A stretch of 53,781 nucleotides of DNA from Actinomycetes bacterium (GTDB taxonomy: Bacteria > Actinomycetota > Actinomycetes > Propionibacteriales > Propionibacteriaceae), in NCBI GenBank assembly GCA_021781735.1, contig JAJXWF010000003.1, positions 1-53,781 of the forward strand. The letters are read 5' to 3'. Position numbers and translations under genes: made by a program. This document shows, in pieces, positions 1,886 through 44,750 of the stretch. The notes beneath the pieces are model-generated. The model made no database searches, was not told where the DNA came from, and saw nothing but the letters and a program-made list of their open reading frames with translations. Every line of letters begins with the position of its first letter. The first letter of the stretch is position 1.

Positions 1886-2089
1886 TTAGAAGGGTTGTTC
1901 TGCGGGGGTGGGTTGGGTGGTCGGGTTGGTGTCTGGTCTCCAGTGGGTGTCGGGGTCGAGGATGTCGTCGGGCCAGGGGGCGGGGTGGCCGTTGTCGTCC
2001 CACCAGCCGGTGTCGTGGCCGGCGGTGAGGGTGTGGAGGTAGTCGGCGCGGGGGTGGCCGGGGCCGAACGCGTCGGGGCGGTGGGTCAT
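1886..2089 (-). CDS. Small hypothetical protein encoded inside the IS256 element
   Basis: A 67-residue reading frame starting MTHRPDAFGPGHPR and ending TTQPTPAEQPF, rich in Pro, Asp, His and Trp. Its ATG overlaps the transposase stop codon as ATGA, so it is placed for translational coupling, and it ends well inside the left terminal repeat. No catalytic motif, membrane segment or DNA-binding motif is visible. Most IS256 elements carry only a transposase gene, so this could be a passenger or accessory gene, or simply a fortuitous frame in GC-rich DNA. The coupled start favours a real gene, moderately. Confidence 0.45.
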   Translation of the reverse strand: MTHRPDAFGPGHPRADYLHTLTAGHDTGWWDDNGHPAPWPDDILDPDTHWRPDTNPTTQPTPAEQPF

Positions 2090-3324
2090 GCGGCGTTCTC
2101 CAGTTCAGGGGTGAGCTTGGTGTCGTTGGTGGTGGGGGTGGTGCGGCAGCGGGTGAGCAGGTCGAGTCCGAGGTAGCGGCGGCCTTCGGCCCATTCGTCG
2201 GTTTGTTCGGCGAGTACGGCGCCGACGAGACGGATGATCGCGTCCCGGTTGGGGAAGATGCCCACGGAATCGGTGCGGCGGCGGATCTCCCGGTTCAACC
2301 GTTCGGAGGGGTTGTTCGACCAGATCTGCATCCACACGTCCTTCGGGAAGCCAGTGAAGGCCAGCACGTCGGCCCGCGCCTGGTCGAGGTGGTCGAACAC
2401 GGCGGGCAGTTTGTCCTCGACGTAGTCCAAGAGCCGGTCGAACTGGGCGTGCACGGCCTGCGCGTCGGGTTGGTCGTAGACCGAGTGCAGCATCGCCTTC
2501 ACCGCCGGCCACAGCGACTTCGGGCACACCGACATCAGGTTCGCGGCGTAGTGGGTACGACATCTCTGCCAGACCGCGCCGGGCAGGTTCGCCGCGATCG
2601 CATCTTTCAAGCCCTGGTGGGCATCGGAGGTGACCAGGCGGACCCCGGTCAGGCCGCGGGCGACCAAGTCCGCGAAGAACGTGTTCCACGCCGGCCCCGT
2701 CTCCGAGGTGGCAACCTTCAGGCCCAACACTTCACGATGCCCGTCGGCGTTGACACCGGTGGCGACCAGGACGACCGCGTTCACCACCCGGCCGCCCTCA
2801 CGGACCTTCATCGTCAACGCGTCCGCGGCGACGAACGTGAACGGGCCCGCGTCGTGCAGGGGTCGGTGGCGGAACTGGTCGACGTGCTCGTCCAGCTCGC
2901 CGGCCATCCTCGACACCTGCGACTTCGACAGCGAATGGATACCCAACGTTTTGACCAGCTTGTCCATCCGGCGAGTCGACACCCCCGCCAGGTAACAATC
3001 CGCCACCACGGTGATCAGCGCCGTCTCGGCCCGTTTGCGCCGCTCCAACAACCACTCCGGAAAGTACGTACCCGAGCGCAGTTTCGGGACCGCGACGTCG
3101 ATGGTGCCGACCCGGGTATCCAACTCGCGGTGCCGGTAACCGTTGCGCTGCGCGACCCGGCCCGGCGTGGCCTGGCCCCACTCGGCGCCGACCACGGCAT
3201 CCACGTCCGCCGACAGCAGGGTGTTGATGATGGTCTGCAACAGGTGACGCATCAGATCCGGCGACGCATCACCCAGCGCTTCGCTGAGCACCCCGACAGG
3301 GTCGACAATGTGAGGAGCGGTCAT
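2086..3324 (-). CDS. IS256-family transposase
   Basis: A 412-residue DDE transposase of the Mutator/IS256 group, the usual size for the family. The catalytic triad is visible as Asp168 (FTFVAADAL), Asp234 (VTSDAHQGLK) and Glu341 (NNPSERLNREIRRRT), and the family CxxH signature as Cys255 to His258 (WQRCRTHYAANL). The N-terminal NGYRHRELDTRVG segment is also typical. No frameshift or stop interrupts it, so it is probably functional. It lies in the same orientation as the cas genes it splits, so it may act as a mobile roadblock or promoter for cas2. Its stop overlaps the next small reading frame as ATGA. Confidence 0.97.
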   Translation of the reverse strand: MTAPHIVDPVGVLSEALGDASPDLMRHLLQTIINTLLSADVDAVVGAEWGQATPGRVAQRNGYRHRELDTRVGTIDVAVPKLRSGTYFPEWLLERRKRAETALITVVADCYLAGVSTRRMDKLVKTLGIHSLSKSQVSRMAGELDEHVDQFRHRPLHDAGPFTFVAADALTMKVREGGRVVNAVVLVATGVNADGHREVLGLKVATSETGPAWNTFFADLVARGLTGVRLVTSDAHQGLKDAIAANLPGAVWQRCRTHYAANLMSVCPKSLWPAVKAMLHSVYDQPDAQAVHAQFDRLLDYVEDKLPAVFDHLDQARADVLAFTGFPKDVWMQIWSNNPSERLNREIRRRTDSVGIFPNRDAIIRLVGAVLAEQTDEWAEGRRYLGLDLLTRCRTTPTTNDTKLTPELENAA

Positions 3325-3444
3325 CGTGATGACTCCATTCGAGTGAGAAGTAGAGAGCTTTCTCGAAGGATCACACGGTGACCGCCCCTACGTCCAAGGA
3401 CAGGCCGGACCACCGCGCGCTACACCACTATGAGGGACTCAACT

Positions 3445-3452
3445 TCGAGTGG
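3445..3452. repeat. Target-site duplication, right copy
   Basis: TCGAGTGG directly abuts the right inverted repeat of the insertion sequence. Keeping only one copy restores the cas1 reading frame. Confidence 0.9.
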
Positions 3453-4030
3453 GGGGCGCCGGGAGCGCCCCAACGGGGCGGATCGGGAGAAGATCAGCGA
3501 ACTGTTGGCGAAGTACACGCGAGCGGCGCGGCCTTCGATGCCCAGAATCTCGGCGAGGCTTGTCGCGTCAGCCAGCTGCTTGATGGCCTCGCCGTGCTGA
3601 CGCCCGACTTCTCTCAGAGCGCCTTGTTTGCGCTCCTCGGTCGCGTCGCGAGCTGCCCGCAAGAGAAGCTGTCGATAGCCTTGGAGCTTCCCGGCGACGA
3701 AAAGCCTGGCCAGATCTACTCGATGGTCAGTGTCATTGAAGGCGCGGTACTGGGCGAGCCGTAGCTCTCCCCGCCCGGGTTCGTCTCCCCCGACGCTCGC
3801 GATGAGTCGCCCGTTCTGACTGATCCATGTGACGTGGATACGAAGTTCAGCGCATCTTCGAAGGGCGTCGGGGCTGACTGCCACTCCACCCCACAACACC
3901 ATGGATTCGAGCCGAAGCATAGGGACCAGCCGTCGTTGTGGGTGGTCGGGATGGACAACACGCAGCGCATCTCCCTCAAGGTGAAGCGACGAACCGGGCG
4001 TTGTCACGTAGAGGGTGTCCAGACTGTCCA

Positions 4031-4648
4031 TCAGCCGTCTTCCTCAAATAGGAGGGCGGCGTGTCCGTCGGTGCGGAGCGGCGCCCCATTTTCGTCGACG
4101 AGGCAAACGTCACGAAGGCTGCAGTCCCGACATCGGGCATCAGAAGCTCGAGGAGGCATGACGCCGGAGTCCAGCATCTGACGGACAGCCTCCAAGGTGC
4201 GTATGGCAGCGGCCCGGAGGGGCTCGTCAATGAGGACTTCCTGCCGTCGGTTCTCCTTATGGGCGTACAGGACTCCGTATTCAACGGCCGTATCGAACAT
4301 CGTCTCCAAACACAGTGCCTGAATGGCAAGTTGCTGGGACGCTGGGGCAAGATGTCGCGCGGAGCGAACGGGCTTGTATTCGACTGGCACCGGTCGAGGA
4401 TGCAATTCGACGCAGTCGCAGACCCCGATCACTTCCAGCTCCTGATGAAAGACCGGCAGTGACAGCCAGCATTCGACCCCGTTGCGGCGGACGCGCCTCG
4501 TCTCGCGGTCGACGCTGGAGTGCTGGGCGGATCCGATCGCGGTGTGCACGTTGTCGGACCATTCTCCGTCCAGAGTGATCAGCGCCGCCTGTCTCGGACA
4601 GTAGGAGAAGTGCTCCACAGCGGAGATTGGTAGTGCGTACTCGTCCAC
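4031..4648 (-). CDS. cas4: CRISPR-associated exonuclease Cas4 (type I-C)
   Basis: Cas4 is a RecB-like nuclease with a 4Fe-4S cluster that trims prespacers and selects those next to a proper PAM for Cas1-Cas2. The 205-residue product has the iron-sulfur cysteines in the usual places: Cys17 in FSYCPRQ and Cys173, Cys176 and Cys182 in CRDCSLRDVC. The RecB-type nuclease residues are Asp78 in GVCDCVEL and Glu90-x-Lys92 in PVEYKPV. The stop overlaps the cas1 start by one base, so it belongs to the same operon. It seems intact, but its partner Cas1 is broken, so at present it probably has no adaptation role. Confidence 0.93.
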   Translation of the reverse strand: MDEYALPISAVEHFSYCPRQAALITLDGEWSDNVHTAIGSAQHSSVDRETRRVRRNGVECWLSLPVFHQELEVIGVCDCVELHPRPVPVEYKPVRSARHLAPASQQLAIQALCLETMFDTAVEYGVLYAHKENRRQEVLIDEPLRAAAIRTLEAVRQMLDSGVMPPRASDARCRDCSLRDVCLVDENGAPLRTDGHAALLFEEDG

Positions 4649-5511
4649 TACATGACCTGGTCGTAAGTCACTCCGCTTGGAAGCTCATCTACGTCCACCG
4701 AGATGTCGTAGTCCTGCACGCTCCGCGCAAGCTCCACGTCGGGGTGTCGGCTCACCTTGACCCGGTCCACCAGTTGGTGCATGGGTGCTGCACCAAACGC
4801 ATCGTGGTGGGTGAAGACGAATAGGCCGCGGGTGGCCATGTTTGCGCGCGCAGCGCTCGACGTGTGGTCGAACATAGAAGCCAGCGTCTTGTACAGCAGC
4901 TCCAGATCACGCTCGGACACCCCCGTCTGCTTCCCCCGGCTGGCTGAGTAGCCGATGACTGCGGTGTAGAGCCCGTACGGGATGGTCCACTTGTTGCCCA
5001 TGGTGCCGCCGCCCTTCTCGGCATCGGCGACGGTGGTGTGGGTGAGCCGAGTGATCGCGTGCTCGGCTGGTGCGACTGGGTCGACGCTGCGAGCGAACGA
5101 CACTTGAACTGGCCCACGGATCTGGCCAAGAGCTGGCGTGTCCTTCATGGACAGCACCGCGCCGAACAGGCGGATGTCCACGTAGGTGCGACACAGCCAC
5201 TCGCGGGCGGCATCGGCGTTCTTGGTCTCCTTACCGAGCTTGAGATTGGCTTGCTGATAGGATTTCTCGAGCACTGAGTTCAGGGGAACTCCTGCGGTCA
5301 CGAAGATGTCGTAGCCTCCCTCCCCGCCTGCAGCGAGGGGAATGGTGTCGCGCACCTTGCGCTTCAGTGACACGTCGGTCACCAAGCCGTGGCCGGTCTC
5401 GGGATCGACCCGGGGCCGGTTGCCGGCATCGGGGTCTCCGTTGGGGTTGCCGTCGTGGATGTCGAACAGCAGAACGATGTCGTGACGGACGCTGGGATCG
5501 GTCATGTTCAT
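4648..5511 (-). CDS. cas7: Cascade backbone protein Cas7 (Csd2, type I-C)
   Basis: Cas7 forms the helical backbone that holds the crRNA in the I-C interference complex. The 287-residue product opens with the RAMP-like strand RHDIVLLFDIHDGNPNGDPDAGNRPR, characteristic of Csd2 (positions about 8-33), followed by VTDVSLKRKVRD. Length matches the family. GAAGGA lies seven bases before the ATG chosen; an ATG two codons later is also possible. The stop codon overlaps the cas4 start by one base. No lesions are seen, so the interference complex should assemble. Confidence 0.95.
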   Translation of the reverse strand: MNMTDPSVRHDIVLLFDIHDGNPNGDPDAGNRPRVDPETGHGLVTDVSLKRKVRDTIPLAAGGEGGYDIFVTAGVPLNSVLEKSYQQANLKLGKETKNADAAREWLCRTYVDIRLFGAVLSMKDTPALGQIRGPVQVSFARSVDPVAPAEHAITRLTHTTVADAEKGGGTMGNKWTIPYGLYTAVIGYSASRGKQTGVSERDLELLYKTLASMFDHTSSAARANMATRGLFVFTHHDAFGAAPMHQLVDRVKVSRHPDVELARSVQDYDISVDVDELPSGVTYDQVM

Positions 5512-5522
5512 GGTTGGTTCCT

Positions 5523-7322
5523 TCAGTTCTGGGTCGGGGACGTAGTCGGTTCGGCATCAGCGCCGAGGAGTAGCCGTTGTTGGCGTGCGGCTTCGCGCTC
5601 ATGGCTGCGGTGCGCTCGCTCGTGGTGGTAACCCATGACGAACATCGCCTGTTCCTCGGTGGAGGCGCGCACCGGTAGTGTCCTGCCTGGCTGCAACAGC
5701 GAGACGACCTGGTCGATGTCTCGCTGGTAGAAGTAGTCTCCTTTGCGGCGTCGGAGCTTGTTCAACCAGGCTGCGGCCTGCTTTTCGCCTGCGGTGATCG
5801 CCGTTCGTGGGTCAGCGATCGCTCCCGCGAGGTGCTTGTCGGCGAAGGTGGCATTCGGTGCCGTGCCTCCGTCGGCTGTGGCGGCCGCGTACTGCAGGTC
5901 TGCATAGATCGCGAAAAGTCGACCTGCGACATAACACGGGTCGGTGCAGGTGAGGTCAAGCCCTGGCATGAGAGTTCCTTTCCGGTAGTTGCGGCGCAGC
6001 GCGAGCTGCAGCAGTGCGGCGCGTTGATCGTCCACGTGATGGTCTGCGCGGATACGTTGGAGCAGATGCGAGGCGAGGAAGCTTGGTGCTGGGCTGCCGT
6101 GAAGGGCGACCGTTCCCAGGCTCTCTTGGATGCCGTGGGGATGGTGCCCGGCCGTGTCCCCCAGCGGCAGATATCGGCCCCTGTCTACGTCGAATCGACC
6201 AGTCGCCGTGGCGAGCAGCCACAGCGACTGGTGACGGTGCCCTCCTTGCCCAAGAGGCTCAACCTCGGTGTCGTAGAACCAGCCGGCCACGTTCGCCCGG
6301 AGTTCATCAAGTGGTAGCGAAGTCCAGTCATTCACCACCAGACGGGGGCCGTTTCCCGAGATCACGAGGCTGTTGAACCGTGCGACGTCCATTTGTCCCT
6401 GGGATGCCACCCCCGAACCCACGGAGTCGAACAGGGAGGCGATGTCCTCCTCCCGGGCCTGGTCGAGCAGGGTGAAGACGTCGAATTGCGTTTCCCCTGC
6501 GATCCACCAGGTGGTCGCTGCGTCCTTGCTGCGCCGGACCCTGCGTTCGTCCGAGAGAAGGCTATTGAGGGCGAGGGGGATGCTTCGGGCACACGCTGTG
6601 CAGATCGGCACGTGAACGAGACCGACAGTGAGATCAAAGCCGAATGGGGCGGCGTTGATCGAGATGGGAGCCACGCCGCTCGACTGTCCGCCGGGCACGT
6701 ATGGGCCCTTCACCATCTGGGGGATGGTCTCAATCAATGCGCCGCTCCTCCCGCAGATCAGGCAGGTGCCGTGTTCACCGGACCCCTTGCGCTCTTCCAC
6801 GTGCCGTACCCAATATCCGACCAGGCTGGGAGCAGCGTGAGCGTTCACCCCGTCGACTTGGACCAGGACGTTGTCCTTGCTCGTCCACCTCTCCGGGCGC
6901 TGGATCTCGGGTGATTGATGGACGAATGACTGGAGTGCCTGCGCAATGGGGTCGTCGACGCCCTCATGCGTTGCCCACTCGATGACCAGATCCCTGTACG
7001 CCTGGTGAGAGTCAGCGACCCGATCTGGCTTGGACGACTCATCGCACCACCCGAGCACGTAACCGAGCCCGTCGTAGGGAACCAGAGCCTCCACGCCGCT
7101 GGACCGCACAACGCTCGGTGTCGAGTGCCATACCCCGACTACAAGCTTCGACCTGCCCTTGCGGTCTGAGGTGGAAGTGGTCAGCTCCGTCAGTTCACGT
7201 GCTGCAAGGCTGCCGTCCGCCCCAAGTTGCAGCAGCCATGTGAATCTTGTCTCCTGGTGATATGGCTTGACGTCAGGCAACGTCGCGGCATAGTCAACAA
7301 GTTCGCCATACATGGTTCTCAT
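5523..7322 (-). CDS. cas8c: Cascade large subunit Cas8c (Csd1, type I-C)
   Basis: Cas8c is the large subunit that recognises the PAM and recruits Cas3; in I-C systems an internal start can also give a small Cas11-like subunit. The 599-residue product begins MRTMYGELVDYAATLPDV, the normal Csd1 start, and contains the Csd1-type segments YWVRHVEERKGSGEHGTCL and CTACARSIPLALNSLL. The length is that of the family. Its start overlaps the cas5 stop (TGATG). A second ATG three codons later is an alternative start. The gene appears intact. Confidence 0.94.
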   Translation of the reverse strand: MRTMYGELVDYAATLPDVKPYHQETRFTWLLQLGADGSLAARELTELTTSTSDRKGRSKLVVGVWHSTPSVVRSSGVEALVPYDGLGYVLGWCDESSKPDRVADSHQAYRDLVIEWATHEGVDDPIAQALQSFVHQSPEIQRPERWTSKDNVLVQVDGVNAHAAPSLVGYWVRHVEERKGSGEHGTCLICGRSGALIETIPQMVKGPYVPGGQSSGVAPISINAAPFGFDLTVGLVHVPICTACARSIPLALNSLLSDERRVRRSKDAATTWWIAGETQFDVFTLLDQAREEDIASLFDSVGSGVASQGQMDVARFNSLVISGNGPRLVVNDWTSLPLDELRANVAGWFYDTEVEPLGQGGHRHQSLWLLATATGRFDVDRGRYLPLGDTAGHHPHGIQESLGTVALHGSPAPSFLASHLLQRIRADHHVDDQRAALLQLALRRNYRKGTLMPGLDLTCTDPCYVAGRLFAIYADLQYAAATADGGTAPNATFADKHLAGAIADPRTAITAGEKQAAAWLNKLRRRKGDYFYQRDIDQVVSLLQPGRTLPVRASTEEQAMFVMGYHHERAHRSHEREAARQQRLLLGADAEPTTSPTQN

Positions 7323-7978
7323 CAGGCCCCCCGCCCCACGTCGTCGATGTCAGGAACATGCATGATGCCGTTGGTCAGAGTCGCCTCGAACCATCGCGAG
7401 CGAGGGTTTCGCCCGTGGGCTTGGAATTCGATTGAGTGCAACATGACGCCCAAGTCCCCACTCGCCCCGACCGGGGGCGTCTCATCCGGATCGCCGAAGA
7501 ACGCGCCGAACTCGCGCGTGCCCAGGTAGGGGGTTGAGAAGCAGGCACCGCGCGTGACACGTCGCCGGAACTGGTCACGGTACTTCGCAGCCGGATCTGT
7601 CGCGTGCGGGTGCAGGGAGACGTGAGCATGAATCCGGTATGCGACGTCGACGAGTATCGTCGCCGCCCGCTGGGTGCGCTCGGCCACTGCGTCGACCACT
7701 TGCCCGGACAACGCAGCTTGGCTGGACAAGACCTGGTTCGTTTCGTTCCGCCGTACAGAGCGGTACTTGATCGGCTTCAGTACTTCGATGGCGGCGACAT
7801 CCCAGCGGAATTCTGGCTTCCAGAAGATCGCCTCCAGCACTCCGGTCGCCGCCGACGGCGTCATGACAGGGTAGGTGATCCTTTCCACCTTCGCCTCGGG
7901 TCGTGTGAACAACGCGCCGGGGCCCCATACCTGGACGACCAGGGGAGGTGCGCCGTCTCGCTGTCTAATGTGAACCAC
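7322..7978 (-). CDS. cas5c: crRNA-processing protein Cas5c (Csd5, type I-C)
   Basis: In type I-C systems Cas5 takes over Cas6's task and cuts the pre-crRNA at the base of the repeat hairpin. The product of about 218 residues contains VVQVWGPGALFTRPEAKVER, the conserved I-C Cas5 start region, then MTPSAATGVLEAIFWKP and GACFSTPYLGTREFGAFF. The start is a GTG at 7978, seven bases after AAGGAG; a GTG one codon earlier at 7981 is also possible. The reading frame continues open upstream into cas3, but nothing there resembles Cas5 and the spacing to the cas3 stop (28 bases) fits the later start. Confidence 0.92.
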   Translation of the reverse strand: MVHIRQRDGAPPLVVQVWGPGALFTRPEAKVERITYPVMTPSAATGVLEAIFWKPEFRWDVAAIEVLKPIKYRSVRRNETNQVLSSQAALSGQVVDAVAERTQRAATILVDVAYRIHAHVSLHPHATDPAAKYRDQFRRRVTRGACFSTPYLGTREFGAFFGDPDETPPVGASGDLGVMLHSIEFQAHGRNPRSRWFEATLTNGIMHVPDIDDVGRGA

Positions 7979-8006
7979 CACTCGGCTCCTTCCTGAATTT
8001 CTTGGG

Positions 8007-10136
8007 CTAGTAGACGAATGAGTAGGGTGCCGAGTCGCCGATGCCGGTAAGCGGGTCGTACGCGCCGAGCCACAGACGCAGCCCAGGCACCGGTTCAGTG
8101 ATGTTTGCCGCGAAGTCGGCAGTGGTGAGAAGGCGTCGCGGCAGCTGCACTGTTGCGGGTTGCAGTCGGCGCAGAAACTCCATTGACAGGACGTCCAGCC
8201 CGGATCTGACGCGCTCCGTGGCCGACAACTTGAGCTGCGCTTGGATCCCCAGTGGCCAGTCGACAACGACGGTGTCAGTGTCTTCATCGATCATTCGGAA
8301 CTTCTTTGCGACGTCGGCGAACGCCAATCCTCGGCGCGAGGCCTGGATGTCGGACGCGTTGTCGTCGACGTTGAGCGCGGCGAACAGCTGGCGGTAGTAG
8401 GCACCGAGGGCGGCGGGCGAATCGAGAGCGCCTGGTTCTGCCGAGAAGCGTCCCCGCGTCAATTGGGTGGCGGTCGCGAGGCTGCGGATCGGTGCGAAGT
8501 CCGGGCCGCTGAAGACCACCACCCGCCCTGCACGCAGCCGCCCCTCTCGGTTAGCGCGGCCAGCTGCTTGAATGATCGAGGAAGCCGGGGCTTCGGCGCG
8601 GAACACGATGGGGAAGTCGACGTCGACTCCAGCCTCGATGAGGGATGTCGAAACCAGACGAACGGCTTGGCCGGCCGCTAGCCTGCTTCGGACCTCGGCC
8701 AAGACTTCGGCGCGGTGGGAGCGGCACATTCTCGTCGACAGGTGTCGCACCGAACTGGGCCCGAGCCGCTCGACCAAGGCCTGGGCCACCTGACGCGCGG
8801 AACGAGTGGTGTTCACCACAACTAGCGACTGCTCATGCGGACTGACGGCCGCTACGAGCTGGTCCATGGCCCAGCCCGACTGCCACTCGTACTCGACCCG
8901 ACGGAGGTCACGAAACAGGGTGGCAGGATCGGGGACGACCTCTTTGGGTTGGATTCGCAGGTCGCGCCACGGCCCCAAGCTCTCGAAGGTTGGCTGGGTA
9001 GCCGAGGCGAGCAACACCGTGGACCCAAAGTGTTGTGTCAGAATCTGCAGCGCCCCAAGAATCGGGGGCAGCAACTCCTGCGGTAGGGCCTGGACCTCAT
9101 CGAGGATGATCACGGCGTTCGTCAAATGGTGAAGCTTCCGCGTCTTCGTCGGTCTGTTGGAAAACAGAGAGTCGAACAGCTGAACCGTCGTGGTGACCAC
9201 GAACGGGGCATCCCAGTTCTCGACCCCTCGACCCGGCAGGCCGGTGGGTTCGACGGCGGAGTGGTGCTCGAGTACCACGTCATCGCCCAGAAGTCGACGG
9301 TAGATGGCGGCGTTCTGTTCTGTGATTGATGTGTATGGGACGGCGACGATGACCCGCCGCTTGTGGTGTGTCGCCGCGTGGTGCAGGGCGAAGCCTGCGG
9401 CCGCCAACGTCTTTCCAGAGCCAGTAGGAGCCGACAGGCGGAAGAGGGGCTCGGGCGAGCGAGCCGCGTCAATGCTCGCCTGATAGACGGCATCGCGCTG
9501 TACGTCGATCGTCGACATAGCCCGGCTGTTGATCAGCCTGTGCCGGCCCTGCTCGAATCGAGCGACGAGGGCGGAAAAGTCAGCATCGGCCCTCACCTCG
9601 GGAGGTGCAGATGCGAAATGTGCAGCCGTGTCGAGATAGTCGGCGTCGACCAGAACGGAGTGCAACATCCGGACGCCGAACTCCGCTGCCCTAGGATCCT
9701 TGCGCCAGCTGTCAGGTACGAGCGGCTCACCGCTGAGCGCCTTGGCAATCTCTGGGATCTCTTCGGAGAGGGCAGCCAGCATCGTCGGGTCAGCAGCGCC
9801 CCTCGGGCAATCGGTGGCGTTGGGAATACCCCCGTGGTGACCGAAGATCGCCAAGGCCCCAACTGCACCGAGTCTCTGCTGTGCGGCGAGAGAGCCAAGA
9901 GTCTTGTGGTCAACCAGTTGGGCAGTCGATCCGGCCTCTAAGAGCAGTAGTCGATTCTGCCACGCTGCGGAGATTTTCCCGGCGTCGTGGAGCACCCCGA
10001 CAGCGAACCCGGCATCTCCCGCGCCGAATTCCTCCGCAAAGCGTCGAGCGAGAGACCCCGTGTTGAGGAGGTGTTCTGCCAGTTTCTGTCGCACCCCTGC
10101 CACATTGCGGCTATGCGCCCAGATCGAATCCACCAA
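8007..10136 (-). CDS. cas3: CRISPR nuclease-helicase Cas3 (type I-C)
   Basis: Cas3 is recruited to target DNA and degrades it. The 709-residue protein has an N-terminal HD nuclease domain: WAHSRN (His8), EHL (His22), the LHDAGK motif at His50-Asp51, and FGHHGG at about 99-103. The superfamily 2 helicase follows: Walker A SAPTGSGKT (about 235-243), DEVQ (346-349) and a late QAAGRANREGR motif. All key residues are present. It is the first gene of the cas operon, so the operon promoter should lie upstream in 10137-10400. The rest of the interference genes follow closely. Confidence 0.95.
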   Translation of the reverse strand: MVDSIWAHSRNVAGVRQKLAEHLLNTGSLARRFAEEFGAGDAGFAVGVLHDAGKISAAWQNRLLLLEAGSTAQLVDHKTLGSLAAQQRLGAVGALAIFGHHGGIPNATDCPRGAADPTMLAALSEEIPEIAKALSGEPLVPDSWRKDPRAAEFGVRMLHSVLVDADYLDTAAHFASAPPEVRADADFSALVARFEQGRHRLINSRAMSTIDVQRDAVYQASIDAARSPEPLFRLSAPTGSGKTLAAAGFALHHAATHHKRRVIVAVPYTSITEQNAAIYRRLLGDDVVLEHHSAVEPTGLPGRGVENWDAPFVVTTTVQLFDSLFSNRPTKTRKLHHLTNAVIILDEVQALPQELLPPILGALQILTQHFGSTVLLASATQPTFESLGPWRDLRIQPKEVVPDPATLFRDLRRVEYEWQSGWAMDQLVAAVSPHEQSLVVVNTTRSARQVAQALVERLGPSSVRHLSTRMCRSHRAEVLAEVRSRLAAGQAVRLVSTSLIEAGVDVDFPIVFRAEAPASSIIQAAGRANREGRLRAGRVVVFSGPDFAPIRSLATATQLTRGRFSAEPGALDSPAALGAYYRQLFAALNVDDNASDIQASRRGLAFADVAKKFRMIDEDTDTVVVDWPLGIQAQLKLSATERVRSGLDVLSMEFLRRLQPATVQLPRRLLTTADFAANITEPVPGLRLWLGAYDPLTGIGDSAPYSFVY

Positions 10137-10596: not shown

Positions 10597-10944
10597 ATGA
10601 TGAGAAAATCGCCGCAGACGAGTCCGGACGGTGCGAAAGCGAGTGTTGGCCGGGTTGCGGCGCTTCTTGGGCGAGCCCTCTCTCTCGGGGACGCGGGCGA
10701 CGTCATGGCGGTTGACCTGACAGTGTCCTTCGAACTCGCCGGCCTGTACACCGCCGCCTTGGCACTGACTGGTGGCGCCCCGATCCCCAACGAGGACGAC
10801 CCCAGAATCACCCGATCGGGTTCGGTCAGCGACTGCCTGGACGCGGCAGTCGCTGAGACGGTCACATGGGATCTGGGTGTTCTCGAAGAGCCTGAGGCGG
10901 CGGAGTTCGTGATCCGGCTCGGCGATCTGGCCCGCGCCCGATGA
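10597..10944 (+). CDS. Uncharacterised small protein coupled to a sigma-like protein
   Basis: A 115-residue product with no family recognised. Its central part, from DVMAVDLTVSFELAGLYTAA to LALTGGAPIPNEDD, and its C-terminus, EPEAAEFVIRLGDLARAR, suggest a small helical, acidic protein without signal peptide or membrane segment. A second copy at 19277-19621 is very similar over the same regions, which supports it being a real gene. Both copies share CTATGGGGTCATGA at the start. Its stop overlaps the ATG of the sigma-like gene (ATGA), so the two products are likely made together; a partner or antagonist of the downstream protein is one possibility, but this is inference. Confidence 0.75.
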   Translation: MMRKSPQTSPDGAKASVGRVAALLGRALSLGDAGDVMAVDLTVSFELAGLYTAALALTGGAPIPNEDDPRITRSGSVSDCLDAAVAETVTWDLGVLEEPEAAEFVIRLGDLARAR

Positions 10945-12773
10945 GCTACAGCCAACTGCGCCGTGAGGCGCTCGCGATCGTGAACTCACCCGACCCGCTC
11001 CCGGTGTCGGCGTGGGCCGACGCCGTACGAGCTGTCGCCGCGCGGCTACGTGAGCTTGGCGTCGACGACCGTGTCATCGGCACCGCGCTGTGGACGACTG
11101 GAGCCGTCACTGGGATGTCTCAGCAGTCGAAAGCTTCGCCTGGTACGACGACGGACCGGTTGATGGTAACGCTGCGGGATCTGACCGAACGGGACCTCGC
11201 ACAGGATCCACAGGGCCTGCGGTCGGCGGTGGCGCTGATCACGCACGCTGCTGCGCGAGGGTTGCCGTGGGAGGCGCCCGCACGGACCCTGCTCGGCGTC
11301 CTCGAGCGCGGTCTTCTGACCGGGGATGGGCTGCGGCCTCTCCACCCGCCGCTCGACGAGGCGCTGCGTCACTGGCAGGCGGCCCTGTCGGTTGCCGGGC
11401 CGGCACTGTCGCACCCGCACGTCGCCGTGTCGGTGGCCGCCATGCAGACACGACTTCTCGACCTCACCCGCCGCACCCTTGACCGCGTGACCAGTGCCGA
11501 GGACGGCGTGTCCACAGCGCGCTTCGAGGCGGCGGTGGTCGGCGCGACGGCCGCCTGGTCGGCCGCGCGTCGCGAGTGGGCCCGCGACGCCACCCTCCCT
11601 GCGGAGACATCGGCTGGTGAGGTTGAGGGGGTCATGCGCGCCGTCTCGCTCGCGGCGTCCGAGTTGGGTCGCGCCGCTGGGACCCAGGCCCTCGAGGATC
11701 CCGTGCAGTTGCTGCGCACTCTTGCCGTCGCCGAGTTCGGGGGTCACGTGATGGCGGCCACGATGGCGGCCACCGTCCGCCCCGGTGATCAGACTGCGCA
11801 GACCCTCCTCGCGGCGTCGGCACGGCTCGCGGCCGCGGGCGACGTCCTGGACATCAACGCACTCCGCGCCGAGTCGCCGAACGCCCAGCCGCCGGGTCTG
11901 AGCCGCGTGGACGCCGAAGGGCGGACGTCCAGCGATGCCCGGGACCAACATCCGTCTGCGGCCGTCACATCGACCGCTGGTGGCGGTGAGCCGCGGCCCC
12001 TCCCCCGCGCCGTTGATGTGCCGGAGCGAGGGATGCTCAGCCCTACGGAGGCGGCCGAGCTGGCCCGGCGGCGGGATGTCGGCGTCCTGGCCGCGACGGC
12101 GTTGTCTGGTGTCGAGGAGGCCCGGCGGATTACCCGGCACGTGAGCGGCCACGAGCTGGAGTCGCTGATGCGCCAAGGGGCGGAGGCGAAGGCGGAGATG
12201 CTGGCGTCGGTGGTCGGGCTGATCCGCTCGCGGGGACGCCGCTGGCCGGGCATGTCCGATGAGCGCCGCGAGGAGATGAACCAACAGGTCGCCGTGCAGG
12301 TTGCGGGGGCTGCCGGCCGGTGGAACCCGGAGACCGGCGTCCCGTGGCCGGCGTACGCCGCGGTGACCGCGAACTTCGCGAGCCGGAACTTCTTCGATGC
12401 CGAGAACAAGGACGGCCGGTATGTCCCTGACGACGAGTTGGACGACCGACCAAGTCGTCAGGTGGGTGTCGAGGACGACGCGCTGGATCGGGTGCTGGTG
12501 AGTCGGGTGGGGCGGATCATCGACGACATGGCCGAGCCGCAACGCACGGCTGTGCGCATGTACCTCGGCCTCCAGGGCCAGGCGCAGGGCAGTGGAGCAG
12601 CTGTTGCCAAGGAACTGGGACTTCCGGTCGAGTCGGGCAGGGCCAGGATCCGCGACGGGCTGGCAGCGCTGAAGGCGATGCTGAACGACCCGGCCCCGAC
12701 GGACGGCCCATCGTTCCACCCACACGAGCAGACGCAGCGCAATCAACCCAGGCGGCCAGGGCGAGGATTGTAA
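10941..12773 (+). CDS. Large protein with a sigma-70-like C-terminal region
   Basis: A 610-residue product. Residues about 1-330 are Ala/Leu-rich and mainly helical with no family recognised; 330-365 is a Pro/Ser/Gly-rich linker. Residues about 446-485 (AAGRWNPETGVPWPAYAAVT) look like sigma factor region 2, where alphas usually read a..yd...G.pF..YA, and residues 527-581 (IDDMAEPQRTAVRMYLGLQG, then AAVAKELGLP) look like region 4, the -35 recognition helix-turn-helix. It may be an unusual sigma-like regulator or a DNA-binding protein built on the same fold. It overlaps the small gene upstream by ATGA, and a LexA box lies further upstream. Its N-terminal 80 residues recur at 19618-19866 in a truncated copy. 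The last 25 residues are polar and probably disordered. Confidence 0.8.
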   Translation: MSYSQLRREALAIVNSPDPLPVSAWADAVRAVAARLRELGVDDRVIGTALWTTGAVTGMSQQSKASPGTTTDRLMVTLRDLTERDLAQDPQGLRSAVALITHAAARGLPWEAPARTLLGVLERGLLTGDGLRPLHPPLDEALRHWQAALSVAGPALSHPHVAVSVAAMQTRLLDLTRRTLDRVTSAEDGVSTARFEAAVVGATAAWSAARREWARDATLPAETSAGEVEGVMRAVSLAASELGRAAGTQALEDPVQLLRTLAVAEFGGHVMAATMAATVRPGDQTAQTLLAASARLAAAGDVLDINALRAESPNAQPPGLSRVDAEGRTSSDARDQHPSAAVTSTAGGGEPRPLPRAVDVPERGMLSPTEAAELARRRDVGVLAATALSGVEEARRITRHVSGHELESLMRQGAEAKAEMLASVVGLIRSRGRRWPGMSDERREEMNQQVAVQVAGAAGRWNPETGVPWPAYAAVTANFASRNFFDAENKDGRYVPDDELDDRPSRQVGVEDDALDRVLVSRVGRIIDDMAEPQRTAVRMYLGLQGQAQGSGAAVAKELGLPVESGRARIRDGLAALKAMLNDPAPTDGPSFHPHEQTQRNQPRRPGRGL

Positions 12774-13637: not shown

Positions 13638-15410
13638 GTGAGCGCGGACATCACGTCGGCGTTGGATGCGATCTGGGGCGGGTCGACGGCCGACGCCCAG
13701 GAGAGCGCCGTACTGGAGTTCAAGACGGTGGGCAGGTCCATCGTTGACACCTTGACGGACCTCGCTGAGGCCGCCGCATGTTTCGCCAACGCTCAGGGTG
13801 GGAGCCTGGTGGTCGGGGTCAGGGATCGCCAGCCCGGCGCTGAGGCGTTCGTGGGGGCTTCCCAGCTGGATCCTGCCCAGACGGTGGGACGTATCTACGA
13901 GGTGACCGAGCCGGGGCTGATCGTGATCGCGGACGTGCGCGACTATCGCGGGGTGCAGCTCCTGGAGATCACGGTGCCTCGGAGCCCGGACATTCATCAG
14001 GTCGCTGGCAAGGCCACGGAACGGGTCGGCAAGTCTTGCCGAGCGATGAACGCCGCCCGCATCGCGGCGTTGTTGGCTGATCGGCGTGGCGACGACTGGT
14101 CGTCCAAGGACTCGGGGGTGTCGCCGGACTCTGTTGGTCCCGTTGTTCAGGCGACAGTGCGGGAACGTCTCGCGCGATCCTCGAGCATGGAGCGCAACTC
14201 GTGGGCCCAGCTTCCCTGGCCCGACATTTGCCGCCGCATCGGTGCGATGGGAGAGGCGACTCTCAACAACGCCGGGTGGGCGCTGCTTGCGGACTCCGAG
14301 CACGTCCAAGCCCAATACGTGAGGCGCGCGGCGAACGCGGGGTTGCTCTCCGCCAACGAGAGCGTCCACGGGCCGGGGATCCTGGCGATCACCCGGATCC
14401 TTGACCTGGTCGAGAGCAGAACGGAACGCACGGCGATCGTTACTCCCAACGGAGCCCAGTTGCTCGTCGGGGATCTACCTGAGACGGCTGTGCGTGAGGC
14501 GGTCGTCAATGCCTTCATGCACCGCGATTACCGGTCGCCGGAGATCATTAGGGTCGAGCATGACGGTCCCACCCTTCGGGTGACATCTCCTGGGGGGTTG
14601 GTGCCAGGTGTCACTGTCGACAACATCCTGACGGTCTCGTCGCGGTGTCGGAACTTCACGCTGGCGCAGGCCATCCGGAGCCTCGACCTGGCGGAATCGG
14701 CTGGGGTTGGGGTGGATCGCATGTACGCCTCGATGACTGCTGTCGGCCATCAGCCACCCCAGTTCAGCACGGATCTGGTGACCGTCACCGCCTTCCTTCG
14801 GGGCGGGCCACCGAACGAACCGGTCGCACGATTTGTCGCTGACTTGCCACTAGAGCGACGGGGTGATCCCGACACGCTCCTCATCCTCACCTACCTGCTG
14901 ACCCACCGCACCACCACCGCGGTGCACATGGCGCCTCTCATGCAGAAGCCCGAAAGTGAAACCGAGGCACGCCTGCTGGAACTGTCGGCCCCGGGCATGG
15001 GCCTGCTCGAGCGGACCGCCGACACCGCACACAGCCGCCGCGGCGAATACCGGCTCGTCGGTTCGGCTATCCGTGCGCTCGGTCCTGCCGTCAGCTACCG
15101 GACCCGATCGGGGGATGATTCGGACCGCAAGATCATCACGATCGTCAGCGAGATGGGGTCGATCAACGGGCGCATCGTTCAGGCACTGTTTGACGTCCAA
15201 CCCGCCACCGCCTCCAGGATCCTGTCGGACCTCGTCGATCGCAAGATCTTGGAGAAGACCAGCAAAGCCCAGCGGGGGCCCTCTGTCACCTACGGCCCAG
15301 GGAAGGACTTCCCGCGCCGGCCGGCTCGTGAAGGAAAGCGCGCGACCCGGGGGCGGAGCGAGCAGAAGTTGCCGATGGACGTAGAAGAAGGCGGGGAGTC
15401 GAATGAGTGA
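13638..15410 (+). CDS. AlbA/Schlafen-type ATP-binding protein with GHKL-like and winged-helix domains
   Basis: A 590-residue product. Residues about 15-115 form an AlbA_2 (Schlafen AAA_4) domain: ESAVLEFKTVGRS and ACFANAQGGSLVVGV. Around 285-370 there is a divergent histidine-kinase-like ATPase domain (REAVVNAFMHRDYRSPE, then AESAGVGVDRM), and the C-terminal 150 residues hold a winged helix-turn-helix-like region (IITIVSEMGSINGRIVQAL). Such proteins occur as transcriptional regulators and near restriction or phage-defence genes. The start is GTG at 13638, preceded by TAGGAGAA. The end overlaps the hsdM start by eight bases, so it is coupled to that gene. It appears intact whereas its neighbours are broken. 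Confidence 0.85.
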   Translation: MSADITSALDAIWGGSTADAQESAVLEFKTVGRSIVDTLTDLAEAAACFANAQGGSLVVGVRDRQPGAEAFVGASQLDPAQTVGRIYEVTEPGLIVIADVRDYRGVQLLEITVPRSPDIHQVAGKATERVGKSCRAMNAARIAALLADRRGDDWSSKDSGVSPDSVGPVVQATVRERLARSSSMERNSWAQLPWPDICRRIGAMGEATLNNAGWALLADSEHVQAQYVRRAANAGLLSANESVHGPGILAITRILDLVESRTERTAIVTPNGAQLLVGDLPETAVREAVVNAFMHRDYRSPEIIRVEHDGPTLRVTSPGGLVPGVTVDNILTVSSRCRNFTLAQAIRSLDLAESAGVGVDRMYASMTAVGHQPPQFSTDLVTVTAFLRGGPPNEPVARFVADLPLERRGDPDTLLILTYLLTHRTTTAVHMAPLMQKPESETEARLLELSAPGMGLLERTADTAHSRRGEYRLVGSAIRALGPAVSYRTRSGDDSDRKIITIVSEMGSINGRIVQALFDVQPATASRILSDLVDRKILEKTSKAQRGPSVTYGPGKDFPRRPAREGKRATRGRSEQKLPMDVEEGGESNE

Positions 15411-16889
15411 CGCACGCCGGTTAGTGGACAAGCTGTGGGCCTACTGCGATGTGTTGCGCGACGACGGCGTCGGGGTCATCGAGTACACCGAGCAGCTGAC
15501 GTACCTGTTGTTCCTCAAGATGGCGCACGAGCGCGCGACCCGGAAGTTGGCGGCCGAGCAGATCGTGCCCGACGAGTATTCGTGGACGCGGCTCCTCGAC
15601 GCCACTGGAGCCGAGCTGGAGACGACCTACTCGTCGATCCTCTCTGGTCTCGCGCTTGAGTCCGGGATGATCGGCACGATCTTCCGCAAGGCGCAGAACC
15701 GCATCCAGGACCCGGCGAAGTTGCGCCGGCTGATTGTCGACCTGATCGACAAGGAGAACTGGTCGAGTACCGGCACCGACATCAAGGGGGACGCCTACGA
15801 GTCGCTGCTGGCCCGGGGGGCGTCCGACAAAGGCTCGGGCGCCGGCCAGTACTTCACCCCGCGGGCGCTGATCCAGGCGATCGTCGACGTGATGCAGCCC
15901 CGGGTCGACGACTATCTCATTGACCCGGCCTGCGGTACGGGCGGGTTCCTGCTGGTGGCGCACTAGTATGTATCGTGGGGGCGTCCTCGTTCACCCCGAC
16001 GCAGCGGGATCACCTGCGTGACGACTTCGCCACCGGGTATGAGTTGGTCGACGGGACAGCCCGCCTGGCGGCGATGAACATGCTGCTGCACGGCATCGGC
16101 ACCTCGAACGGTGAATCGCCGATCGTCGTCCAGGACTCGCTGCTGACCGACCCGGGATCGCGCTGGTCGATGGTGTTGACGAACCCGCCGTTCGGGAAGA
16201 AGTCGTCGCTGACGATGGTGGGCGCCGATGGACGCGAGGACAACGAGATCGATCGGCAGGACTTCGTCGCGACCACCTCGAACAAGCAGCTGAACTTCGT
16301 CCAGCACATCATGACGATCCTCGACACCAACGGCCGGGCTGCCGTGGTGCTGCCCGACAACGTGCTGTTCGAGGGAGGTGCGGGCGAGACGATCCGGCGC
16401 AAGCTGCTCACCGATTTCGACCTGCACACCATGCTGCGCCTGCCCACGGGCATCTTCTACGCGCAGGGCGTCAAGGCGAACGTGTTGTTCTTCGAAAGGA
16501 AGCCGGCCAACCCGGGACGGCCGTGGACCGAGCGGCTGTGGGTCTACGACCTGCGCACCAACCAGCACTTCACGCTCAAGCAGAACCCGCTGCGCCGCAA
16601 GCACCTGGACGAGTTCGTCGACTGCTTCAAGCCTGGTCACCGAGGCGACCGGGTCGAGTCCGAGCGGTGGCACTCGTTCAGCTATGGCGAGCTCGTTGCC
16701 CGCGACAAGGCAAACCTCGACATCACCTGGCTGCGCGACGAGTCCCTAGAGGACCTGGACAACCTCCCCGCCCCGGACGTGATCGCTCGCGAGATCGTCG
16801 AAGACCTGTCCGCCGCGCTGGCCGAGTTCGAGGCCGTCGCTACGGCGTTGGAGGCGCAGCTCGCCGGTGAAATCGCGGACTCCGACTGA
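15403..16889 (+). pseudogene. hsdM: Type I restriction-modification methyltransferase HsdM, interrupted
   Basis: HsdM methylates adenine in type I restriction-modification. The first part (15403-15966) has the N-terminal helical domain (EYTEQLTYLLFLKMA) and motif I at its end (DPACGTGGFLLVA), followed at once by TAG at 15964. The rest continues in another frame from about 15975 (RDHLRDDFATGYELVDGTAR) with motif IV NPPF at about 16184-16195 and runs to a normal C-terminus at 16889. Both an in-frame stop and a frame change lie in 15964-15980, so a single sequencing error does not explain it. No hsdS or hsdR is present, so this is a remnant of a type I system. Confidence 0.9.
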
Positions 16890-17254: not shown

Positions 17255-17420
17255 CTGGCCAGGCACTTCGACGGCAGTGGAGGAAGCCGGTGGGAATCCG
17301 GCACGGTCCCGCCACTGTGACCGGGGAGAGACCCCACGAGGCCACGACCGCTGAGCGGTCGGAAGGCCGGGGCGACGCTGATCCGGGAGTCAGGACACTC
17401 AGGCCGTCGTCCCTTTGGCG
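17255..17420 (+). promoter_or_regulatory. Cobalamin riboswitch
   Basis: The leader of the next gene holds the cobalamin riboswitch signature: GTGGGAATCCGGCACGGTCC followed by CGCCACTGTGACCGG (about 17290-17325; the B12-box-like core), and at the 3' side GTCAGGACACTCAGGCCGTC (about 17389-17408). Its place directly before a B12 lower-ligand gene fits. It should lower expression of bluB-cobT when adenosylcobalamin is plentiful. Exact borders were not determined. Confidence 0.92.
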
Positions 17421-17454
17421 CGGGGCGTGGACACCCCGAGGAAGGCCGGCCCCC

Positions 17455-19224
17455 ATGCCCGGTGACGACTCCGACTCCTTACGGCCCCTTGCTGCCGCCC
17501 CCGCGTTCTCCGCTCCTGAGCGGTCCGCCGTGCACCGCGCGATCCACGAGCGGCGGGACCTGCGCACGGGTTTCCTCCCCGATCCAGTGCCCGACGATGT
17601 CCTGGTCAGGCTGCTGGCGGCCGCACACGTCGGCCCCAGTGTCGGGTTCTGCCAGCCGTGGGACTTCCTGCTGATCCGTAACCCGGAGACCAGGGCCAGG
17701 GTCCGTGATCTCGCCTATCTCCAGCGCGGCCGCTTCGCGAGCGAACTTCCGGGGGCGCGGGGTAGGGCGTTCCGCGACCTGAAGATCGAGGCCATCCTCG
17801 AGACCCCGGTCAACATCGCGGTCACCTCCGACCGCACTCGCGGGGGACGTCACGTCATCGGCCGACACGGGGTCCCGCAGATGTCCGCCTTCTCGACCGC
17901 CTGCGCGGTGCAGAACCTGTGGCTCGCCGCACGCGCGGAGGGCATCGGGGTCGGGTGGGTGAGCTTCTTCGACGAGACCGAGATCTCGGGGCTCCTCGGT
18001 CTTCCGGACCATCTCGACCTGGTCGCCTACCTCTGCGTGGGCTACGTCACCGGCTTCCCGGACGCCCCCGGGCTCGAGACGGTCGGATGGGCCAAACGCA
18101 GGCCACTGAGTTGGGCCGTCCACCACGAGGTCTGGGAGCAGCGAGGCATGCCCGGTGACACGTCGAGCACGGTTCTCGAGGAGACTCTGCGGGCCATCGA
18201 GCCCCTCGACTCCGAGGCCGTCAGCCAGGCGCGGGAGCGTCAGTCACAGCTGACGAAGCCGCCGGGCTCGCTCGGTGTCCTTGAGGACGTGTCGGTCAAA
18301 CTGGCCGGGATGGCCGGAACCTGCCCGCCACCGCTTCCCGAGCCGGCCGTTGTCCTGGTGTTCGCAGCCGACCACGGCGTGCACGCGCAGGGCGTGAGCC
18401 CCTGGCCGCAGGAGGTGACGGTGCAGATGGTCGGCAACTTCCTCGCCGGTGGTGCCGTGGTCAATACCCTGGCTTCCCGGGCCGGGGTCGAAGTGTCCGT
18501 CGTCGACGTGGGAGTCGCCTCCGACGTACCGGCAGCCCCCGGCCTGCTGTCGCGGAAGGTGCGCCGGGGCACGGCCGACATGACCGTCGAACCGGCCATG
18601 ACCCGCGCCGAGGCGGTGCGGGCCGTCGAGACGGGCATCGAACTGGCGCGCGACATGGTCGCGGCGGGCAACCGCTGCCTGCTCGCGGGCGACATGGGCA
18701 TCGCCAACACAACCGCCTCGGCGGCGCTCATCTCGGTGTTCACCGGACGCGAGCCAGCCGCCGTGACGGGCTATGGAACGGGCATCGATGAGGACACCTG
18801 GACGCGCAAGGTGGCCGTCATCGACAGGGCACTCGCCCTGCACCGGCCCGACCCCGCCGACCCCATCGGAGCGCTCGCGGCCCTCGGTGGGCTGGAGCAC
18901 GCCGCCACGGTGGGCCTGATCCTCGGCGGTGCCGCGCTGCACGTCCCCGTCGTGCTTGACGGGGTGATCTCGGCGGCTGCCGCGCTGGTCGCCGCGGCAC
19001 TGGCCCCGGACGCCACAGACTGGCTCATCGCCGGGCATGTATCCGACGAGCCGGGGGCGAGGGTGGCCCTGGAAGTCCTCGGTCTGGTGCCCCTCCTCGA
19101 CCTAGGAATGCGCCTCGGGGAGGGCTCGGGAGCCGTGCTCGCCCACCCGATCGTCGTCGCCGCGGCCCAGGTGTTGCAGGACGTGGCGACCTTCGACACG
19201 GCGGGGGTGTCGGAGAAGGACTAG
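17455..19224 (+). CDS. bluB-cobT: BluB-CobT fusion: DMB synthase and DMB phosphoribosyltransferase
   Basis: A 589-residue bifunctional enzyme for the lower ligand of vitamin B12. Residues about 1-225 are BluB, a flavin-destroying nitroreductase-fold enzyme that makes 5,6-dimethylbenzimidazole from FMNH2 (RRDLRTGFLPDPVPDDVLVR, GPSVGFCQPWDFLLI). Residues about 235-589 are CobT, which attaches ribose phosphate from nicotinate mononucleotide to it: LTKPPGSLGVLEDV, FAADHGVHAQGVSPWPQEV and GMRLGEGSGAVLA with the catalytic Glu at about 556. Such fusions are known from Propionibacterium freudenreichii. The start is ATG 17455, eight bases after GAGGAAGG; the frame is open further upstream but that is riboswitch. 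Other cob genes are absent from the window except the cobS fragment. Confidence 0.95.
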   Translation: MPGDDSDSLRPLAAAPAFSAPERSAVHRAIHERRDLRTGFLPDPVPDDVLVRLLAAAHVGPSVGFCQPWDFLLIRNPETRARVRDLAYLQRGRFASELPGARGRAFRDLKIEAILETPVNIAVTSDRTRGGRHVIGRHGVPQMSAFSTACAVQNLWLAARAEGIGVGWVSFFDETEISGLLGLPDHLDLVAYLCVGYVTGFPDAPGLETVGWAKRRPLSWAVHHEVWEQRGMPGDTSSTVLEETLRAIEPLDSEAVSQARERQSQLTKPPGSLGVLEDVSVKLAGMAGTCPPPLPEPAVVLVFAADHGVHAQGVSPWPQEVTVQMVGNFLAGGAVVNTLASRAGVEVSVVDVGVASDVPAAPGLLSRKVRRGTADMTVEPAMTRAEAVRAVETGIELARDMVAAGNRCLLAGDMGIANTTASAALISVFTGREPAAVTGYGTGIDEDTWTRKVAVIDRALALHRPDPADPIGALAALGGLEHAATVGLILGGAALHVPVVLDGVISAAAALVAAALAPDATDWLIAGHVSDEPGARVALEVLGLVPLLDLGMRLGEGSGAVLAHPIVVAAAQVLQDVATFDTAGVSEKD

Positions 19225-19276: not shown

Positions 19277-19621
19277 ATGACGACGACATGTCCGATGACA
19301 GTTGATGGCACTGGGGCGAGCGTTTGTAGGGTCGCGGCGATCCTTGTCCGAGCCACATCTCTGGTGGATGCCGACGATGTGATGGCCGATGATCTGGCGG
19401 CGTGTTTCGAGCTGGCTGGCCTGTACGCGGCGGCCCTGGCCCTGACTGGTGGCGGCCCGATCCCCAGCGAGGACGACTCGGGCGTCGCCCAGTGGGGTTC
19501 CGTAGGCGACTGCCTGGACGCGGCGGTCGCTGAGACGACCACCTGGGATCTGGGTGTTCTCGACGAGCCTGAGGCGGCGGAGTTCGTGATCCGGCTCGGC
19601 GACCTGGCCCGTACCCGATGA
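19277..19621 (+). CDS. Second copy of the small uncharacterised protein
   Basis: A 114-residue homologue of the gene at 10597, sharing FELAGLY-AALALTGG-PIP, WDLGVL-EPEAAEFVIRLGD and the same CTATGGGGTCATGA start context. The first 20 residues differ (MTTTCPMTVDGTGASVCRV). It lies 52 bases after bluB-cobT and overlaps by ATGA with the truncated sigma-like gene behind it. It lacks the LexA box that lies near the first copy. No function can be given; it may be a leftover of a duplication, although its own frame is intact. Confidence 0.65.
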   Translation: MTTTCPMTVDGTGASVCRVAAILVRATSLVDADDVMADDLAACFELAGLYAAALALTGGGPIPSEDDSGVAQWGSVGDCLDAAVAETTTWDLGVLDEPEAAEFVIRLGDLARTR

Positions 19622-19866
19622 GCTACAGCGACTTGCGCCGCCAGGCGTTGGCGATCGTGAATTCACCCGACCCGCTGCCAGTGTTGGCGTGGGCCGACGC
19701 CGGACGGGCTGCCGCCGCTCGGCTGCGGGAGCTCGCCGTCGAGGATCGGGCCATCGACAGGGTTCGCTGGACGGCTGCTGCTGTCACCGGGATGTGTGAC
19801 CGGTCGATCGGCTTGACCGGTCCGACGGCTGAGCGGACAGCATCGAGCAGAATCTGCCCAAAGTGA
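19618..19866 (+). pseudogene. Truncated second copy of the sigma-like protein gene
   Basis: The 82-residue frame starts MSYSDLRRQALAIVNSPDPL and follows the N-terminus of the 610-residue protein at 10941 for about 60 residues (ADAGRAAAARLRELAVEDRA, TAAAVTGM), then diverges and stops at TGA 19864. The sigma-like C-terminal regions are absent. It is therefore the 5' stump of a duplicate gene. A perfect 7-base inverted repeat CCTGATG/CATCAGG (19867-19890) directly follows the stop. Confidence 0.75.
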
Positions 19867-24317: not shown

Positions 24318-24710
24318 GTGGATGAACGGCTCGGTACCTATCGGCGTCGATTGACCGAGGGTCGTCGGGAGAAGCGCACGGTCATCAAGCACACCCCCGA
24401 GGAGTGGGAGCGGGTGGCGTCCCTGGCGAAGGCGCAGGGGGTGAGTGTTCCGCGGCTGTACGAGTTGGCGGTGCATACCGGCGATGCGATGTCGGCGTCG
24501 ACGCTCACACGCGTGGTCGGTGAGTTGCACGTGATCCAGCGGATCATGGCGGGCGTGGCCACCAATCTGAATCAGTTGGCGCGCGCGGCGAACGCGACCG
24601 GAGAGGTGTCCGAGCCGCAGGTTCTTGCCGCTGCCGAGGCGATGCAACGGCAGGTGTCCCGACTGCGGGAGACCATCCAGCAGGTGCCGGGGGGAGACCT
24701 ATTCAAGTGA
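24318..24710 (+). CDS. mobC: MobC-like mobilisation protein
   Basis: A 130-residue accessory protein that helps the relaxase at oriT. It has the family layout: a basic N-terminus (RLGTYRRRLTEGRREKRTVI), a ribbon-helix-helix-like part (TPEEWERVASLAKAQGVSVP RLYELA, about residues 30-55), and the conserved MobC region GELHVIQRIMAGVATNLNQL followed by a helical tail. The GTG at 24318, seven bases after GAGGGGG, is preferred; the frame is open upstream across the oriT candidate. The stop overlaps the relaxase GTG start. Confidence 0.88.
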   Translation: MDERLGTYRRRLTEGRREKRTVIKHTPEEWERVASLAKAQGVSVPRLYELAVHTGDAMSASTLTRVVGELHVIQRIMAGVATNLNQLARAANATGEVSEPQVLAAAEAMQRQVSRLRETIQQVPGGDLFK

Positions 24711-41383: not shown

Positions 41384-41411
41384 CTGCGATCAGGTCCCTT
41401 CCTGCTGTCCG

Positions 41412-43330: not shown

Positions 43331-43375
43331 CCGCGTGTCCTCACTGTCGAGGGGAATGTCCGGCCGACTCGGAGG

Positions 43376-43666: not shown

Positions 43667-43734
43667 CGAAGGGCTCCTTCCGTGGTGGGTCTCCCCCGTC
43701 CGGGTCGGACGGGCTGGGTGGACGGAGGGGGTGG

Positions 43735-44748: not shown

Positions 44749-44750
44749 GG

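Follow-up and report, generated by a model that had tools for sequence, protein, structure and literature searches.

Two overlapping genes in a Propionibacteriaceae genome raise the question of what a protein built on parts of a sigma factor does beside a small partner without a recognizable family. The window, meaning the whole stretch of 53,781 nucleotides that was analyzed, is an entire contig (C277), one of 285 that make up a genome of 3.19 Mb. A reading made from its letters alone proposed that the pair resembles a regulator with a cognate partner and held that no function could be read from the sequence. We asked whether the genes are real, where the large protein comes from, and what the surroundings of the pair suggest about its role.

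The overlapping gene pair and its relatives

Both genes lie on the forward strand. The small partner gene (10597–10944) is an open reading frame (ORF) of 115 amino acids, and the large gene (10941–12773) encodes a sigma70-derived protein of 610 amino acids with a helical N-terminal domain. The stop of the first and the start of the second share the four bases ATGA (10941–10944), as the sequence-only reading had described. The large gene showed a coding-type pattern of GC content by codon position, whereas the signal from the small gene was weak. Comparison of the two small-gene copies within the window gave a dN/dS of 0.28, the sole informative value for this gene, as close pairs of small genes contained too few changes. 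The 74 codons common to both large-gene copies in the window gave 0.42, and values of 0.26 and 0.45 in two closely related large-gene pairs outside the window show that the large protein is kept by selection. The pairing has been kept although the small proteins are just 22–34% identical among loci, which argues that neither ORF arose by chance, and we regard both as real genes.

Homologs of the large protein were found in 13 of 294 genomes in a search of the window's order, every one of them Propionibacteriaceae, with Tessaracoccus among the hosts, and a search of the family added one further genome (G311). A class-level search of 395 genomes with a single query (L022, E cut-off 1e-10) matched the window's genome only, so the family looks restricted within that sampling. 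Full-length loci numbered 14 in 12 genomes, all Propionibacteriaceae (the window, two in G185, one each in G140, G092, G283, G222, G230, G293, G193, G138, and G311, and UBA6238 with two contigs). At each of these loci, the small gene was immediately upstream of the large gene on the same strand, with an ORF of roughly 100–145 amino acids that ended no more than 4 bases from the large start. Eight loci had a 4-base overlap of the frames (ATGA or GTGA), and the other six had a 1-base overlap or lay 1 base apart, assuming a GTG start in L025 and L035. With the window small protein as query, matches in 197 genomes of the order fell only beside large genes or the truncated copy, and we therefore found no genomes in which the two genes are regularly apart. 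Searches for phage or plasmid relatives of the entire window large protein (tblastn) returned none, and viral contigs gave none either. The L022 protein gave only weak partial matches, including one to a regular sigma-70 gene that a Streptosporangium plasmid carries.

The pair was also thought to occur twice in the window, which holds for the small gene but not for the large one. The second copy (19277–19866) is a 577-bp block with 78% DNA identity to the first. It contains an intact small gene (19277–19621, forward strand, with a longer ORF from 19250) whose protein is 72% identical to that of the first copy, followed by a truncated large gene (19618–19866, forward strand) with an ORF of 82 amino acids. 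Two intact copies are ruled out because the second large gene ends after about 74 homologous codons, and tblastn of the window and its genome detected nothing more of this copy. Just ahead of the truncated pair ends a 644-amino-acid ORF (17290–19224) that by eye seems to fuse a nitroreductase/BluB-like part to a CobT-like part.

Descent of the large protein and features of its partner

Several lines of evidence place the large protein among sigma70 relatives. NCBIfam sigma-factor models matched window residues 410–581 below their cut-offs (SigK, E 5.8e-6; sigma70-ECF, 8e-4), and a profile of the family matched SigA, HrdB, RpoS, and SigB chains in the PDB, with E-values down to 3.1e-16 (SigA). 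Alignment with Propionibacteriaceae SigB by hhalign covered window residues 364–580 (probability 97.5%, E 5.8e-12), and the stretches LTxE..ELA....G..A and A(S/T).EL...G..A are common to both proteins. In a predicted structure built from 8 sequences (mean pLDDT 67.5), residues 367–489 superposed on domain 2 of mycobacterial sigma-A (4x8k; Z 14.4, rmsd 2.5 Å, 117 residues), and longer structural alignments ran from residue 355 in region 1.2 to residue 582 in region 4. Given this homology in sequence and fold over regions 1.2/2 and 4, the large protein is a sigma70 member by descent, derived from the SigA/SigB type (groups 1 and 2 in Actinobacteria).

The architecture proposed earlier, a helical N-terminal part of 330 residues followed by sigma regions 2 and 4, agrees with both the profiles and the predicted structure. 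Residues 1–310 (10941–11870) form an all-helical domain in the prediction. A search against PDB sequences found no relatives of this domain, and the whole-protein structure search barely probed its fold. A low-confidence linker (residues 305–363) leads to region 1.2 and domain 2 (residues 355–489, 12003–12407), where region 2.2 has an eroded core-binding motif, and then to the helix-turn-helix of region 4 (residues about 520–582, 12498–12686). Region 3 had no aligned residues in the hhalign alignment with SigB, where just a short segment separates regions 2 and 4. Compared with SigA and SigB, the large protein thus lacks region 3 and the hallmarks of regions 2.2 and 2.3 but adds the N-terminal domain and a constant small partner. 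Neither window protein matched a family in Pfam or PADLOC, and the pair, real and conserved, belongs to a family without a description in the libraries searched.

Working sigma70 factors carry a DLxQEG core-binding motif in region 2.2 and, in region 2.3, an aromatic WW pair with a role in promoter melting. Across the 11 paired members compared, the Q of the region 2.2 motif was present in six, the E in two, and the G in one, and the WW pair was found in none. Identity to SigB consensus positions in paired members was 48% in region 1.2 and 10–18% in regions 2.1–2.4. Three relatives without the N-terminal domain (L030, L031, and L032) essentially retained the motif, as QEG, QEG, and QDG. Two of these sigma-only relatives, L030 and L031, scored above the Pfam cut-offs in both region 2 and region 4; L032 did so in region 2 and fell slightly short in region 4. 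Because the region 2.2 motif and the WW pair are gone in paired members, ordinary sigma function of the large protein is doubtful. Retention of the predicted fold alongside loss of polymerase-contact residues suggests that the protein works in an altered way, and we file it as sigma70-derived, not as a canonical sigma factor.

The small protein is predicted to form four or five helices (pLDDT 82), and a W-D...L motif near its C-terminus is almost invariant across the family. As first described, it has no known family, with no match in Pfam, PADLOC, or PDB sequences and none to anti-sigma families. Profile and PDB-sequence searches found no sigma similarity in it, and an origin as a duplicated part of the large protein was rejected, as the two showed no profile similarity. 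A fold search gave nothing more specific than four-helix bundles, Dps among them (Z ≤9.4). Helical bundles can score this high through their arrangement alone, and we claim no fold match. Like an anti-sigma factor, the small protein is encoded beside its sigma-type neighbor in a single unit at all 14 loci, and it is most likely a partner of the large protein, either anti-sigma-like or a co-subunit.

Conjugative neighborhoods and an upstream element

Relaxase and/or type IV secretion system (T4SS) genes were present on the same contig at 11 of 12 inspectable loci, a count that leaves out the two short UBA6238 contigs, and L024 had a Tad locus with no T4SS within the stretch fetched. Recurrent neighbors encode TrwC or MobA relaxases, TraG/VirD4, VirB4, SCO6880-like and TrbL-like proteins, an M23 peptidase, a DnaG-type primase, and ArdC, along with a Tad pilus locus in one subgroup. 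In L025 and L026, genes for ParA and for a ParB-like protein adjoin the pair. The T4SS genes of L026 and L086 start immediately after the pair, and L020–L023 have a T4SS operon downstream on the strand of the pair, with about 7 kb of other genes in between in L020. The window pair lies 12 kb from a gene for a MobA/VirD2-type relaxase (24707–26323, forward strand; Pfam PF03432, E 1.6e-10) and about 20 kb from a conjugation block on the opposite strand (33145–46289). This block includes genes for a DnaG-type primase, a DUF4913 protein, the C-terminal part of TraG, and VirB4-like and SCO6880-like proteins, its last genes being unannotated. We conclude that the pair belongs to the backbone of conjugative elements, which makes transfer regulation the leading hypothesis. 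The survey of neighborhoods thus links the constant pair to mobile elements through conjugation genes, and the pair is more interpretable than the sequence-only reading, which saw no readable function, had supposed.

The window contig further carries CRISPR-Cas type I-C, restriction-like, and metabolic genes. A CRISPR-like repeat array with a period of about 72–73 nt occupies positions 1–970, and type I-C cas genes lie within 2086–10136. The cas1 ORF (3420–4031) covers the first 60% of its family profile only and abuts an IS256/Mutator-type transposase gene (2086–3324), and so appears truncated. A type I methyltransferase in two adjacent ORFs (15403–16889) and an apparently split TraG (36311–36925 and 36971–38251) may each reflect a frameshift or an assembly error. 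On two other contigs that bear elements, tRNA-Pro(tgg) genes some 20–25 kb from the pair (L061, 772–847; L064, 16334–16409) are possible integration sites. Two Micrococcales plasmids, L067 (pXCEL01) and L068 (pCPRO01), have the same ParA / next gene / SAF / TadZ / TadA locus, with the pair absent between the par and Tad genes.

When the 260 nt that precede the first T4SS gene were aligned for seven elements, they revealed a common two-box block, GGGGTA-N15/16-GTCA, at −130 to −142 (GGGGTG as a variant in L060), and the same upstream regions contain GGGGGTA(G/C)G repeats. The sequence GGGGGTAGG is present in four to five copies upstream of the transfer operon in L020 (18704–18875) and L021 (11378–11558), with two copies inverted in L020. 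The strict two-box pattern had six matches in the loci against 0–1 in shuffled sequence, a comparison that overstates significance because the pattern was read from six of those very sequences. Across 147 genomes of the family, it matched five times and a reversed control pattern three times. Three of the five matches were at the near-subtype transfer operons of that sample, known loci that were all in pair-bearing genomes. We take the other two (G007 and G197), which lie away from transfer genes, as chance, since the reversed control also matched three times.

In this sample, near-subtype T4SS and the pair gave 4e-5 in an approximate Fisher test, assuming that pair status is known for all 147 genomes, which is not fully so. 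Four distant T4SS operons (first gene 27–29% identity) had no such element upstream, and the two of these that were checked are in genomes without the pair. Nor was it found upstream of the window T4SS block, ahead of L026-type operons, or upstream of the pair genes themselves. The GGGGTA element is tied to the near-subtype transfer operon, and it may be read by the sigma-like protein. Alternatively, this element or the GGGGGTA(G/C)G repeat could be the operator of another regulator. In L073–L076, distant T4SS operons that lack the GGGGTA element, the 300 nt ahead of the first T4SS gene have another recurrent block, approximately GGGGGA(C/A)-N-TGAC(A/T)AGG, at which some other transfer regulator may act.

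Candidate functions and known systems

Our preferred reading, to which we assign a probability of roughly 0.45, is that the pair is a co-translated regulatory module of Propionibacteriaceae conjugative elements, composed of a sigma-derived transfer regulator and its cognate partner. An ancestor of the SigA/SigB type would have retained regions 1.2, 2, and 4, lost region 3, and gained the helical domain of about 310 residues on a flexible linker. The large protein would direct or activate transcription of the transfer (T4SS) operon from a dedicated promoter, for which GGGGTA-N15/16-GTCA is the candidate. The small helical protein, made from the coupled frame, would bind the large one, perhaps at its N-terminal domain, to hold or release it; we infer binding, promoter use, and direction of control alike. 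Four routes to homology, pairing at 14 of 14 loci, conjugation genes at 11 of 12, and the upstream block common to seven elements favor this reading. Against it are the losses in regions 2.2 and 2.3, the separation of the window pair from its T4SS block, and the lack of the element at the window and L026-type operons, and the link between pair and element is a correlation in few genomes.

A different use of the same ancestry is a close and only somewhat less probable alternative. The large protein may no longer initiate transcription, serving instead as a DNA-binding regulator through the region 4 helix-turn-helix or as a mimic of a sigma factor, titrating an anti-sigma factor or diverting RNA polymerase, with the small protein again as partner. 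The disparity in conservation between regions 2.1–2.4 and region 1.2 (10–18% versus 48%), the loss of the QEG motif, and the absence of region 3 are all consistent with this, and PhyR, which uses a sigma-like domain, provides a precedent (PMC8103513). However, the sigma2 fold is predicted to persist, and the two-box spacing of the upstream element is promoter-like. Both this and the transfer-regulator reading predict altered tra expression upon loss of the pair and differ in their biochemistry.

More specific is a two-protein, sigma-derived switch, in which domain 2 would lack the usual polymerase contacts, the N-terminal domain and small partner would supply or control them, and conjugation operons would fire from a non-canonical GGGGTA-N15/16-GTCA promoter; we find this rather doubtful in its full form. 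Quite unlikely is that the large protein is inactive alone and requires the small one, which would then be no inhibitor but a co-subunit, either as in the two-subunit sigma factor SigO-RsoA or as a co-activator. Constant pairing and overlapping frames with coupled translation would fit, and a partner could stand in for the lost core-binding residues. Sigma domains can be reused or split, and SigO-RsoA resembles our pair in that a sigma-related protein is encoded beside a small partner, but there sigma2 and sigma4 are split over two proteins (PMC8103513), whereas here the large protein carries both and its partner shows no similarity to sigma factors. The toxin-antitoxin possibility raised earlier lacks positive evidence, unlike the regulator-and-partner part of that proposal, and a toxin-antitoxin or defense module carried as element cargo is highly improbable: the small upstream gene does overlap a larger one, and the window pair sits between CRISPR-Cas type I-C and restriction-like genes, but neither protein matched PADLOC or a toxin family, no domain beyond the sigma-derived ones was recognized in the large protein, and the recurrent neighbors are conjugation genes.

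Extracytoplasmic function (ECF) sigma factors do not have region 1.2, which the large protein retains. In ECF sigma/anti-sigma operons (PMC8103513), a sigma-type protein and a neighboring partner gene likewise share one transcription unit, but here the small gene is upstream and has no anti-sigma family match. In a limited literature check, the portions seen of a review of Gram-positive conjugation (PMC6540685) and of a survey of actinobacterial ICEs (PMC3218068) made no mention of an element-encoded sigma factor, and from these sources control of T4SS-type conjugation in Actinobacteria appears little described. If correct, the transfer-regulator reading would give Propionibacteriaceae transfer operons a regulator pair and a candidate promoter, both of them defined, and would offer a natural test of how many core-binding residues a sigma factor can lose yet act in transcription.

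PHROG 351 (RNA polymerase sigma factor, 928 positions) and MzaA are likewise long proteins whose C-terminal portion holds a sigma domain. PHROG 351 matched 5 of 11 members (best E 2.7e-11), and its match to L022 was limited to the sigma part (residues 423–569). MzaA matched the sigma-only relative L030 and not the window protein. In L030 (12307–13904) and L031 (9224–10725), an element-borne sigma gene also overlaps an upstream gene by ATGA or GTGA beside the T4SS gene traG, a second arrangement of this kind. These two differ from the pair in having intact Pfam sigma regions, no N-terminal domain, and another upstream partner of 203–211 amino acids, which has no Pfam match and by eye is DUF4913-like.
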